NCBI GenBank assembly: GCA_001771275.1
Contig: METE01000002.1
Location: 88,300-121,849 of the forward strand
DNA from: a candidate division Kazan bacterium RIFCSPLOWO2_01_FULL_48_13
GTDB taxonomy: Bacteria > Patescibacteriota > Kazan-3B-28 > UBA10110
Reading direction: 5' to 3'
Length of the DNA: 33,550 nt
Part shown: positions 9,876 to 19,579 of the stretch, one piece after another
Layout: each line of letters starts with the position of its first letter
How positions within the stretch are numbered: the first letter of the stretch is position 1
The notes under the pieces: model-generated
What the model was told of the DNA's origin: nothing
Databases searched by the model: none
What the model saw: only the letters and a program-made list of their open reading frames with translations
Made by a program: the position numbers and the translations under genes

Positions 9876-9985
9876 CATCGGTGGCTGGTTTAAAATTTGA
9901 CTTATAATTAACAAACACCTCTCGCGGAGAGAGGCTTAGTAAAAACACAAGGTTTTCCCTAACTCTTCTCACGGAGTTGGTTCTA

Positions 9986-10095
<110 letters not shown>

Positions 10096-10117
10096 ACCTA
10101 ATCTTTAAGGTAAAACT

Positions 10118-15498: not shown

Positions 15499-17382
15499 CT
15501 ACCAGTTTAGGTTGGACTTAACCCGATGCATCACAGAACTATTTTCTCGCTCTTTGGGCGACAGAGCGGCTACTTTTCTCCAAAACAAGACAAGATCATG
15601 TTCTTTTAGTTGGTGATAGGGATGCGGGTACAATTCGGGCTCGTTAGTCATTGAGGGCAGTGCAATAGGGTTAACCGGTTCCCCCAGCACACCTGCGTCA
15701 TCTTGTTCATCGGCAGCTGATAATTCTGCCCGGCCACACTGTTGAAGTAGGCCTATATATAATTTGATGTTTTTAACTAGTCCGCGCCGCTTAGCCTCAA
15801 ACTTTAATTTCCTTAATGCCCGACTTTCGATTTGGCGAATGCGTTCTCGGCTTACATTGTAATACTGGCCGATCTCTTCTAATGTACAATCCGCTCCGGT
15901 GCTTTTATTTAATCCAAGCCGGAGATTTAATATATGAATCTCTTTTTTATTCAATCCAAACTGCTGCATTAATGTCCGGAGTTCCTTTTTGGCCGTCTGA
16001 TAAGCCATGGCCAGTTCGGGGTCAGCCATCTTTTTATCAGAGATGAATTGATGGCGGGGAGATTCCTCGTCCAGACTCCCTCTGCCTCTTAAAAGGCCAG
16101 CGTCCAGAGATTCAATTGTCCGATTGTAGTTCAGCACCTGTTCCATATCCTCCACCCGAACTCCCAATCGAGCAGCCAATTCCGACTGGGTTAGCGCATC
16201 CCCAGCGTCCACTGCTGCCTGTCTGATAGCGCGATTTAGCCTGAAGATCGATTCGAATACATGTATCGGAAGGCGAATGCCCCGACCTCGGTTGCTAATC
16301 TCCCGATAGACGGCCTGTTTAATCCACCAAGTTGCCAAGGTGGAGAGTTTCAATGGTTCGTCTTTAATTACCTGTCCAGTTTCTGGGTCGCGGATACGAT
16401 AATCTGGATCGTATCTTTCTATCGCCCTAATCAGGCCCAGGTTGCCCGCCTGGATCAGATCCAGGAAATCCAGACCTCTGCCTGTATGTTTTTTGGCGAT
16501 CGAAACCACCAACCCCAAATTGCTATTGATTAATCTTTCTTTGGCTGACATATCACCTGCCCGATAACGCAAAGTTAGGGAACGCTCCTCTACTACGCTC
16601 AACAGCGGGGTTCGTCTAATGGCCATCAAGTAAGCTTTAACGGAATCCTCGGTCATGCGGTCCTCGGCCAAGAGCTGCTCGGTAGTTTTGGCCGGCCGGC
16701 CCGAATCCTTCTCAACCTCTTCACCCGCATCATCGTTGGATGCCGGCTCACTGTGCTCTTTGCCCTCGGGGGTTTTATCATCGGGCAGCTCGATTGCGGG
16801 CATACTCACATCCCTGGTCTCCACCCGGTGTCGTCTGTTGTCGGAACTGGGTTTGGGAGGAGGCGCAGTCTTTGCCCCGTTAATCCCTGGGGAGAAAGAT
16901 GGCTCTGAGATGGGATTATAGGCAAAATCGACTGCCAAGCGAGCCAAGATCAAATCGGCCAGCTCCGGGTGGACAAACTGGCCATTAGCGTATCTCCGGC
17001 ACTGCTCGGGGCGTCTTGATCCTTCTTGCTTAATAATAGAAATCATCTCGTTGGCTTCTGACCGCGAGCGCCTAATAATGTCCTCGACTTTTACATAGCC
17101 AACCGGAGCGGCCTCTTTAAGGGCCGCCACATCACTTAATATATCCCTTAAAGTTTTGGAGTCGACGACTTCTTTATTGTTAGATTTATTACTAAAATTA
17201 TCAGGATAGGCCGTTCGATAACGCCCAATAATCTGGGGCAGGCGCTTTCGATCATCATCCCCCACCATTTCCAATATCTCATCGGTATGGACCCCGGGTA
17301 TTTTGGATTCACTAAACAGCTTAGCCGTAGGGTCGTTTGATGGCGGTAATTCCACTGATGGTAAAGATATTTTTTCTTTCAT
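15499..17382 (-). CDS. RNA polymerase sigma-70 family factor, second of a tandem pair, with long N-terminal extension
   Basis: 627 aa from the ATG at 17382, 10 nt after the stop of the upstream sigma gene (an ATG at 17418 would overlap that gene). No ribosome binding site is evident. Residues 1-235 are an extension with a helix-turn-helix-like piece ('VKVEDIIRRSRSEANEMISII') and an acidic Pro/Ser linker. Then come region 1.2 ('DSVKAYLMAIRRTPLLS'), region 2 ('GLVVSIAKKHTGRGLDFLDLIQAGNLGLIRAIERYDP', with 'STLATWWIKQAV'), region 3, and region 4 ('TLEEIGQYYNVSRERIRQIESRALRKL'). Residues 325-350 contain an insertion between 2.2 and 2.3 shared with its neighbour. It is probably housekeeping-like or a group 2 factor; which of the two is the main sigma cannot be told. 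Confidence 0.93.
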   Translation of the reverse strand: MKEKISLPSVELPPSNDPTAKLFSESKIPGVHTDEILEMVGDDDRKRLPQIIGRYRTAYPDNFSNKSNNKEVVDSKTLRDILSDVAALKEAAPVGYVKVEDIIRRSRSEANEMISIIKQEGSRRPEQCRRYANGQFVHPELADLILARLAVDFAYNPISEPSFSPGINGAKTAPPPKPSSDNRRHRVETRDVSMPAIELPDDKTPEGKEHSEPASNDDAGEEVEKDSGRPAKTTEQLLAEDRMTEDSVKAYLMAIRRTPLLSVVEERSLTLRYRAGDMSAKERLINSNLGLVVSIAKKHTGRGLDFLDLIQAGNLGLIRAIERYDPDYRIRDPETGQVIKDEPLKLSTLATWWIKQAVYREISNRGRGIRLPIHVFESIFRLNRAIRQAAVDAGDALTQSELAARLGVRVEDMEQVLNYNRTIESLDAGLLRGRGSLDEESPRHQFISDKKMADPELAMAYQTAKKELRTLMQQFGLNKKEIHILNLRLGLNKSTGADCTLEEIGQYYNVSRERIRQIESRALRKLKFEAKRRGLVKNIKLYIGLLQQCGRAELSAADEQDDAGVLGEPVNPIALPSMTNEPELYPHPYHQLKEHDLVLFWRKVAALSPKERENSSVMHRVKSNLNW

Positions 17383-17392
17383 ATAGAATCTG

Positions 17393-18847
17393 CTAACTAA
17401 AATCTGGGTCGGTATCATTAAAAGACAAGTTGGTTGATTTATTATCTATTCTTTCTACTTTAGACCAAGTTAATTGATTAGACCGAGTAATTAAGCGGGG
17501 CTTGGGGAATACAATCTCGGCGGCTCCTTTGGCCGAAAGTTTCTTTTTCTGCCAGTCAATAGCCTCCTCTGTCTTACCGTCAGATTCCAGCTCTTCTAAC
17601 CGATATGCCTCTACAATATCGGCTCGACGGCTTTGAACTAAAGATTCCAAGCAGGCCAATAGTACCGGGCCAACGCCCTTTCGTTTAACCCAAGCCTTAA
17701 GTTGGTCTATCGCTCGCTTTTGGATCTGGCGAATGCGTTGTTGGGTAAAGCCAAATATAGCCCCGATCTTTGCTAAAGTAGTTTCCGATCCTTCGGGATT
17801 ATCCAAGCCGTATCTCATTTCTAATATGTATATGTCTTTATCGGATAGACCGCTTTTTTTCATCATATGTTTTAGCTCGCTCCGGGCAGCTCTGTACTCC
17901 TCCACCAACACCGGATCAGGAGGATACGAATCGCTCATCATCTCTATAAATTCTGTTTCTTTCTCCAACCCTCCACCCAATGAGTTAGGATTGTCACCGT
18001 GTTGAACCCCCGTGTTTAATGAGGCAGTTCTCATTCCATAAGCCAATAGCTGTTCTAATTTATCAACCGGAGTTTCGAGCCTTTCGGCCATTTCGGCGAT
18101 AGTCAACTCCTGGCCCTTAGAACCCCCTAACTGTCCCATTTTCTTGCGCAGAGCGGCCAACTCCAGATGTATATGGGCTGGCCGGCGCACAGTATCCCCC
18201 TGAGTTTCTATTGCCCGATTAATCAACTGGCAGATCCACCAATGAGCGTAGGTGTTAACCCTAAGCGGCCTATCTTCTCCAATTATCTCCTGAGTTGTTT
18301 TGTCCCGCTTGCGATATTCGGGATCATATTTGTCTATCGCTCGGATTAGCCCTTTATTGCCCTCCTGAATAAGATCTAAAAACGACAATCCACGGTTGGT
18401 GTATTTTGGATTTTTAGCGACATACACCACTAATCTTAGGTTATGATTGATGAGTTTCTCCCGAGCAGACATATCACCCTCTTTACGATACCGATTAGCT
18501 AATTCCACCTCTTCCTCGGTAGTCAATCGGGGATACTTGCTTATGTATATGAGATAGGATTTAATTCCACTGAATAGTTGATTGTCTTCGGCGGCCAACC
18601 GTTCCGAATCCCCTATTGGTTCATCTTCTCCCCAATCTACTATGTCAAGTATATCGGAATCAGGGTTATTATAGGCTTCCTCAACCTCGATTTTAACTCT
18701 CTCAATTTCCGATACATCCAATATGGTAACTCCCGGCATTACGACTTCGGGCAGTTCCCTCAACCTGCGCCATCTACTCGATTTTTGGGGAGTTTCGCTT
18801 GGGTTATCGGACATAGCCGATTCTATGACTTGTGATTCTTTAACCAT
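17393..18847 (-). CDS. RNA polymerase sigma-70 family factor, first of a tandem pair
   Basis: 484 aa. Regions 1.2 to 4 are all present: '[23 protein letters not shown]', '[41 protein letters not shown]', '[17 protein letters not shown]', '[22 protein letters not shown]', and '[30 protein letters not shown]'. Region 2.4 reads '[10 protein letters not shown]' where RpoD has RTIRIPVHM, so its -10 contacts may differ from those of its neighbour, which keeps 'GIRLPIHV'. It shares a 14-15 residue insertion at 178-195 with the downstream sigma gene. A tail of about 75 residues after region 4 is not typical of RpoD. A duplicated pair in one operon is unusual. Confidence 0.92.
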
Positions 18848-18946: not shown

Positions 18947-19210
18947 CTATTGGCGCTTATTGCGGTCCGCGAGGCTCAAAAGATAGATAAACAGTCCTAA
19001 ACACACTAAAAAGATGCCTAAACCGATTTTGGAGATTGTCGGTACAGCCGTAGTAGAAATTGCCGGATTTTGAGCTATGTAGTATATAAATGTAATGCAT
19101 TTTGTTGGCTGTCCTTTGCTGTAGCTATGGAGCAACGGATGGCCAGGGCGGAAGGATTTACCCTGCTGTATATATTTTATAAGTCGGGTATAAACTTCGA
19201 ACCCTATCAT
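18947..19210 (-). CDS. Doubtful small ORF with C-terminal membrane anchor
   Basis: At most 87 codons. Only the last 40 residues look protein-like: 'TISKIGLGIFLVCLGLFIYLLSLADRNKRQ', a single membrane segment followed by a basic tail, as in surface proteins or sortase substrates (no LPXTG-like motif). The first half reads like non-coding sequence, and the 3' end of a tRNA-like relic (19139-19163) overlaps it. It may be the surviving end of a lost surface-protein gene. The region 18848-19219 holds nothing more secure. Confidence 0.25.
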   Translation of the reverse strand: MIGFEVYTRLIKYIQQGKSFRPGHPLLHSYSKGQPTKCITFIYYIAQNPAISTTAVPTISKIGLGIFLVCLGLFIYLLSLADRNKRQ

Positions 19211-19219
19211 TCACATCAT

Positions 19220-19257
19220 ACAAGAAAATCCCGAACAGTAAGTTCGGTATTTTCTTG
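19220..19257 (-). terminator. Terminator-like hairpin after the tRNA cluster
   Basis: CCGAAC/GTTCGG around 5 nt, extended by ACAAGAAAAT/ATTTTCTTGT arms. On the minus strand the inner stem is followed by GATTTTCTTG. It begins directly after the CCA of the outer tRNA-like unit. Confidence 0.65.
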
Positions 19258-19297
19258 TGGCTGGGGCGGAAGGATTCGAACCTACGATCACGGGACT

Positions 19298-19446
19298 CCC
19301 GCACCAAAATTTATTGTTTTTTCACGCTGGCTGGGGCGCTAGGATTCGAACCTAGGATCATGGGACCAGAACCCATTGCCTTGCCGCTTGGCTACGCCCC
19401 ACTAATAGGGCGTGAAAAAATAGATTATCAATAAATTTGGTACGGG
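19298..19446. repeat. Inverted repeat bracketing tRNA-Gln
   Basis: Left arm 19298-19327 (CCCGCACCAAAATTTATTG, TTTTTT, CACGC) is complementary to right arm 19410-19446, apart from one base change, one extra base and an 8-nt insertion in the right arm. tRNA-Gln begins at the very next base after the left arm. Confidence 0.8.
19328..19401 (-). tRNA. tRNA-Gln (anticodon CTG)
   Basis: Complete cloverleaf. Acceptor TGGGGCG pairs with CGCCCCA (U1-A72, typical of tRNA-Gln), discriminator G and encoded CCA. D-arm GCC...GGC. Anticodon stem ATGGG/CCCAT with loop TTCTGGT, giving CTG (reads CAG). T-arm CTAGG-TTCGAAT-CCTAG. A second isoacceptor for CAA should exist elsewhere. Confidence 0.96.
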
Positions 19447-19473
19447 ACAGGCGCCACCCAGATGCCTTGTTTA

Positions 19474-19504
19474 CCCCGTAGTGAGCTTCGCTCTACTACT
19501 GGGG
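19474..19504. repeat. 31-nt CCCCGTAG palindrome inside a tRNA D-loop
   Basis: Same 31-nt unit as 6717-6747 with two adjacent differences (TC for CT). It interrupts the D-loop of the outer tRNA-like unit between AGCGG and TAAACAAGGC. Confidence 0.8.
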
Positions 19505-19579
19505 CCGCTTGGCTACGCCCCATCACAAGTCGACCCTATTATCACCTATGGGGTGGCGATGTTCAAGCTCTAAGACCGC

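Follow-up and report, generated by a model that had tools for sequence, protein, structure and literature searches.

Why does a complete tRNA-Gln(CTG) gene lie within the anticodon loop of a second tRNA-Gln gene, and what became of the tRNA that it interrupts? The locus was found in a stretch of 33,550 nucleotides (G000:C2:88300-121849, hereafter the window) of a genome of 790,858 bases, 97% complete, that is placed with candidate division Kazan (Patescibacteria). It is probably what is left of a homing-type mobile element with tRNA genes as its targets, one that persists by replacing rather than by splicing. The genomes compared were metagenome assemblies, some of which contained N runs. The insert arm of the window nest was also present in JAFGPN010000015.1 (G001, Patescibacteria, same genus as the window genome G000) and in METB01000001.1 (G004, candidate division Kazan). 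The nest and its immediate surroundings contain the following features, in minus-strand order.

19538-19566, minus strand: promoter-like TTGAAC-17-GATAAT, preceding the outer 5' half and read directly from the sequence
19457-19522, minus strand: 5' half of the split outer tRNA-Gln (acceptor strand, D-arm and 5' strand of the anticodon stem)
19522-19504, minus strand: first segment of the outer 5' half, TGGGGCGTAGCCAAGCGGC
19503-19469, minus strand: 35-nt palindrome inserted in the D-loop of the outer tRNA; it forms the core of a dispersed repeat
19468-19457, minus strand: second segment of the outer 5' half, AAGGCATCTGGG
19456-19448, minus strand: junction, TGGCGCCTG
19447-19402, minus strand: left repeat arm plus leader of the inner tRNA
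19401-19328, minus strand: inner intact tRNA-Gln(CTG) (ARAGORN; Rfam tRNA, 60.5 bits)
19327-19297, minus strand: right arm of the inverted repeat, then GT before the outer 3' half
19294-19258, minus strand: 3' half of the outer tRNA-Gln, CCA included (19296-19258 with the preceding GT)
19220-19258, minus strand: terminator-like hairpin with 17-nt arms, 94% complementary
19204-19140, minus strand: second displaced 3' tail of a tRNA, its T-loop carrying an insert; the outer 3' half in G001 is its homologue
19100-19008, minus strand: fragment of a GIY-YIG endonuclease gene, truncated to the N-terminal 31 aa (Pfam, 27.3 bits, E=4.6e-6)

The preliminary description of a tRNA-Gln(CTG) nested in the anticodon loop of a second tRNA was confirmed, and each element that it had listed lay where it had been placed. 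The outer acceptor stem, described as perfect over seven pairs, was formed by 7/7 Watson-Crick pairs. The outer D-stem, T-arm and encoded CCA were present, with one T-T mismatch in the T-stem that was shared by the intact inner tRNA of G001. The inverted repeat said to bound the insert had arms of ~30 bp around the inner tRNA. The candidate promoter corresponded to the TTGAAC-17-GATAAT sequence, whose counterpart in G001 was TTGAAA-17-GATAAT, and the terminator proposed directly after the outer CCA corresponded to the hairpin listed above. In the predicted RNA fold, the outer acceptor stem closed around the nested tRNA with a z value of -5.5, and 0/200 shuffles were as good. The outer D-loop palindrome, which is the core of a repeat with ~20 dispersed copies in G000, had gone unremarked, as had the second 3' tail and the GIY-YIG fragment. 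Related genomes, which the preliminary description had proposed to search for the same layout, provided it in G001, an independent assembly, at 91% identity. Because of this conserved layout and the direct repeats within the window nest (39 nt at 90% identity and 19 nt at 100%), the nest is more than a chance arrangement.

Nesting was found at many tRNA genes in several species. Up to 400 nt on either side of each tRNA, with other tRNAs masked, the sequence before it was searched for a copy of its 20-nt head and the sequence after it for a copy of its 20-nt tail; a match of at least 15/20 was counted as an echo, the thresholds having been chosen in the course of the analysis. Own-isotype echoes were found at 20/46 tRNAs in G000, 11/40 in G001, 7/45 in G003 and 7/45 in G004, and control queries of other isotypes matched at 0-2.5% in these four genomes. 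In G013, a genome of a distant family, 3/40 tRNAs had own-isotype echoes. An intact tRNA was flanked by both half-echoes for Gln, Met (three genomes), a second Met, Thr-TGT, Thr-CGT, Ile, Val (two genomes) and Pro. Inverted repeats were present at the nests of Met, Thr, Val, Ile and Pro, some of which were multilayered; two outer 3' halves were stacked at Thr-CGT of G000, and several 5' halves at Met of the same genome. The repeat arms paired in every cassette examined, and better within a cassette than with the arms of most others. A strict double-tail pattern applied to 380 genomes returned a single true nest, together with a false positive in coding sequence, and exact acceptor repeats are therefore a poor screen. 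A BLAST search of plasmids gave ordinary tRNA-Gln-like matches and nothing else. Viral contigs containing the left-junction motif were rejected as chance matches, no tRNA being present in them.

Small GIY-YIG nuclease genes were concentrated around tRNA genes. With UvrC left out, 16/46 GIY-YIG genes in G000, G001, G003 and G004 were located within 350 nt of a tRNA, compared with 2.1 expected from the territory under an assumption of uniform placement (binomial p~8e-11). A preference for intergenic positions would raise the expected count, but hardly to the observed level. The strand was that of the nearest tRNA for 15 of these 16 genes; the remaining 30/46 GIY-YIG genes were away from tRNAs. 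A GIY-YIG gene was located within the nest itself at Pro in G000, Gln-TTG in G001 and Arg in G004, and the Pro nest was ordered as outer 5' half, tRNA, GIY-YIG gene and outer 3' half. The only small GIY-YIG gene of G013 lay between two broken Tyr heads, upstream of an intact tRNA-Tyr. Outside the order, a GIY-YIG match was found near tRNA-Gln loci in 3/20 cases. In the window, the GIY-YIG fragment lay downstream of the nest, 231 nt from the inner tRNA, and the nest contained no intact nuclease gene.

If the cassette were transposon-like, inverted repeats around a tRNA would be moved in trans by a transposase or recombinase, and GIY-YIG genes would merely accumulate near tRNAs. The cassettes share terminal inverted repeats with MITEs, and the repeat CCCCGyA...TrCGGGG was present at most insert junctions and common to several isotypes. 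An empty hairpin with Gln cassette ends in G005 and the many nests that contain no nuclease gene are also consistent with such movement. However, the cargo tRNA was always of the isotype of its target, which a transposon has no reason to match, and the nuclease association was strong and included genes within nests. Furthermore, the Gln cassette end, across nine genomes, occurred at tRNA-Gln loci only, except for the one empty copy. A transposon-like origin is thus considered unlikely. The empty hairpin (L105 from ~1501; G005:C1:383656) was bounded by GTGGCGCCTGTCCCGCA...TGTGCGGGAGT and contained no tRNA.

The nests could also be remnants of integrase-type elements (phage or ICE) whose attachment site was the anticodon loop or T-loop and which were then deleted almost entirely, a reading that we regard as quite improbable. 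The anticodon loop, the T-loop and the tRNA 3' end are known integrase sites according to PMC9897764, which cites Williams 2002, and tail-only loci had the outward form of a restored tRNA with a displaced tail. Integrative elements in tRNA genes split the target, restore its function and displace a fragment (Islander database, PMC4383910). Such elements are large, encode an integrase and restore the target by completing the host half, whereas the nests had a tiny insert, ~50-600 nt at many loci, and a complete second tRNA. No integrase was found in any insert examined, the ORFs there being GIY-YIG only. In addition, a nest would require two oppositely oriented events, yet the arms on both sides matched.

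The pairing of the outer halves distinguished a split tRNA from a duplicated one. Where the outer acceptor halves differed from the inner tRNA (Met in G000, G001 and G004, Thr-TGT in G000, and Ile and Val-GAC in G003), they paired with each other at 7/7 positions, G-U allowed, and each of these loci had at least one mismatch when the outer 5' half was crossed with the inner 3' half. The outer halves of the second Met paired in either combination, and those of Thr-CGT (G001) and Val-TAC (G004) no longer paired, as expected from decay. Since the outer halves at sister loci paired mutually better than with the inner tRNA, the resident tRNA was split and not plainly duplicated. The outer halves are thus usually one split resident tRNA, and the insert brings its own cognate tRNA. 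At the orthologous Met site, the outer tRNA of G001 was of the GTCAGGG type and the inner of the GCCAGCG type, and these were reversed in G004. G000, G001 and G003 had one and the same inner Met tRNA sequence over 75 nt, despite an identity of ~50-87% between the neighbouring proteins. The resident tRNA seems to have been replaced repeatedly and in both directions.

These alleles bear on a tandem tRNA duplication followed by decay of the flanking copies and insertion of palindromes, which is disfavoured and in our view highly improbable. The outer and inner Gln sequences were similar, decay of outer copies was seen, and the repeated Met heads of G000 resemble tandem units, but duplication does not fit outer halves that are complementary and that, at Met, Thr, Ile and Val, pair less well with the inner tRNA, nor does it fit the repeat arms at the junctions, the nuclease genes within nests and the swapped Met alleles. 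The preliminary description had left the choice between a decayed duplicate and a new interrupted tRNA locus. Its suggestion of decay was supported by the outer tRNAs of G004 and G001, and the plain duplicate was contradicted by the mutual pairing at the sister loci.

The orthologous Gln-CTG sites showed a patchy distribution. Upstream of tRNA-Gln(CTG), a gene set encoding a 105-aa protein, a glycosyltransferase and a glutamyl/glutaminyl-tRNA synthetase (Pfam) was common to G000, G001, G003, G004, G006 and G008. The site was nested in G000 and G001 and half-nested in G004, and it was occupied by one uninterrupted tRNA in G003, G006 and G008, with a displaced tail downstream in G006. The nest of G001 was complete, with a perfect anticodon stem (ACGGG/CCCGT), and its outer tRNA carried a further insert in the T-loop. 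The outer 5' half of the window tRNA was kept in G001 and G004; in G004 it had a D-loop palindrome at the equivalent place and was followed by the same insert arm, but the outer 3' half was absent. In G007, a tRNA-Gln of a different type was bounded by the same junctions; the outer 3' half next to it was of the common type, and the GTGGCGCCTGTCCCG junction was again present. The tRNA-Gln(TTG) of G000 also appears to be nested, inside an outer tRNA of the other type, its right side being hidden by an N run. Two very unlike tRNA-Gln types with one anticodon (TGGGGCG... and TCCCGGATCGTC...) alternated among species of the order (L094 = G003:C6; L110-L114).

A spliced, functional outer tRNA-Gln is unlikely on this sequence comparison, because relatives have lost the 3' half (G004) or gained a T-loop insert (G001). 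Excision of the inner tRNA from the transcript, with joining and use of the outer halves, would agree with the conserved promoter, terminator and acceptor pairing and with the predicted closure of the outer stem, but is extremely improbable given these losses, the interruption of the outer D-loop in three genomes, an anticodon loop that cannot be restored to a standard form and the lack of a group I intron match. At the window nest and the other nested loci, Rfam gave tRNA matches only, and a group I intron core was not found. Group I introns and archaeal or eukaryotic tRNA introns also lie in the anticodon loop; in contrast, the nests had no intron ribozyme match, and function would be restored through replacement instead of splicing.

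The reading that we favour, a homing-type element acting by replacement, would proceed as follows. A small GIY-YIG endonuclease would cut the tRNA gene of a recipient, and repair from the donor copy would place the cassette in the anticodon loop. The cassette would be a complete tRNA of matching isotype, flanked by an inverted repeat that is often CCCCGyA...TrCGGGG. Its arrival would destroy the resident tRNA, and the cassette tRNA, presumably resistant to cleavage, would serve as the working substitute and be transcribed from the promoter of the resident. Afterwards the nuclease gene would decay, as the fragment at 19100-19008 of the window may illustrate, and the outer halves would gather palindromes before decaying in turn. 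The inverted repeat perhaps acts in processing of the precursor; to our knowledge, known homing elements lack such a repeat, which counts against this reading, as do the nests that contain no nuclease gene, the window nest among them, and the many GIY-YIG genes away from tRNAs. Introns and inteins persist in essential genes through self-splicing. The present insert seems to persist by giving the cell a spare of the gene that it broke.

Comparable replacement is known from fungal mitochondria, where mobile ORFs replace gene ends, as in the atp6, atp9, cox2 and nad3 hybrids of Glomus and atp6 of Allomyces (PMC3630166). In these cases, a LAGLIDADG or GIY-YIG gene and a foreign replacement gene part arrive jointly, and the displaced native part stays downstream (PMC3630166). 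The nests resemble them in that a replacement is supplied (the inner complete tRNA) and the native part is displaced (the outer halves), in the patchy distribution with empty orthologous sites in G003, G006 and G008, and in the nuclease gene in or beside the insert at sister loci, although the window has a fragment only. Mobile ORFs replace the 3' ends of mitochondrial protein genes, whereas here a complete tRNA lies inside an inverted repeat in a bacterial anticodon loop, at several isotypes. SegB of phage T4, a free-standing GIY-YIG homing endonuclease beside tRNA genes, drives inheritance of the linked tRNA region (PMC2988022) and is a precedent both for the position of the nuclease and for the driving of a tRNA region. 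However, SegB cuts an intergenic region of the tRNA cluster, and neither a nested tRNA nor a split resident one is involved there.

A search of the open-licence literature found no description of a bacterial tRNA nested in another tRNA, nor of a GIY-YIG gene lying inside a patescibacterial tRNA gene. A wider proposal is that selfish elements, each moving a GIY-YIG nuclease along with a cognate tRNA that resists cleavage, are widespread in Patescibacteria, invading many isotypes at the anticodon loop or T-loop and replacing tRNA sets layer by layer; we hold this to be evenly balanced between true and false. If inserts do persist by supplying a spare of the broken gene, this would explain the turnover of tRNA genes in very small genomes and would give both horizontally acquired tRNAs and the tRNA gene fragments that confuse annotation a concrete origin. 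It would also provide many small GIY-YIG nucleases with predicted tRNA-gene targets.

Other displaced tails and heads were observed in G000. Downstream of its tRNA Ile, Asn, Trp, Leu-CAG, Arg-CCG and Gly-TCC (L012, L021, L123, L125, L127), a terminator, an inverted T-arm copy, a structured core of ~130 nt and a 20-nt tail copy followed in this order. The core was conserved (GGGAAAGGGGTCGGGGAAACGGGAG...), and the final 20-nt copy of the 3' tail was direct. Rfam at permissive settings assigned these cores to no family and gave only tRNA and weak chance matches. This T-loop tail class (Ile, Asn, Trp, Leu, Arg and Gly) may be a related but separate process. A short type of T-loop insert, AAGTTTATACCCGACCTATAGAATATATATGGCAGGGTAAAT, was present at several displaced tails, including those of Ser and Leu-TAA of G000 (L129, L125, L126) and the window tail at 19140-19204. 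Broken 5' heads lay upstream of Lys-CTT (L127:1648-1722), Pro-CGG (L129:1993-2067) and Asp (L129:3721-3797). The Lys-CTT and Pro-CGG heads had a palindrome such as TCCGTCAGCTGACGGA within the anticodon arm or in place of it, and the Asp head had a different hairpin with a seven-base loop instead of the palindrome. Elsewhere in the window, a cobalamin riboswitch (Rfam RF00174, 39 bits) was located at 9976-10106 on the minus strand. Two neighbouring, slightly overlapping genes of the sigma-70 family, encoding 639 and 484 aa, occupied 15499-18847, which is unusual in so small a genome.
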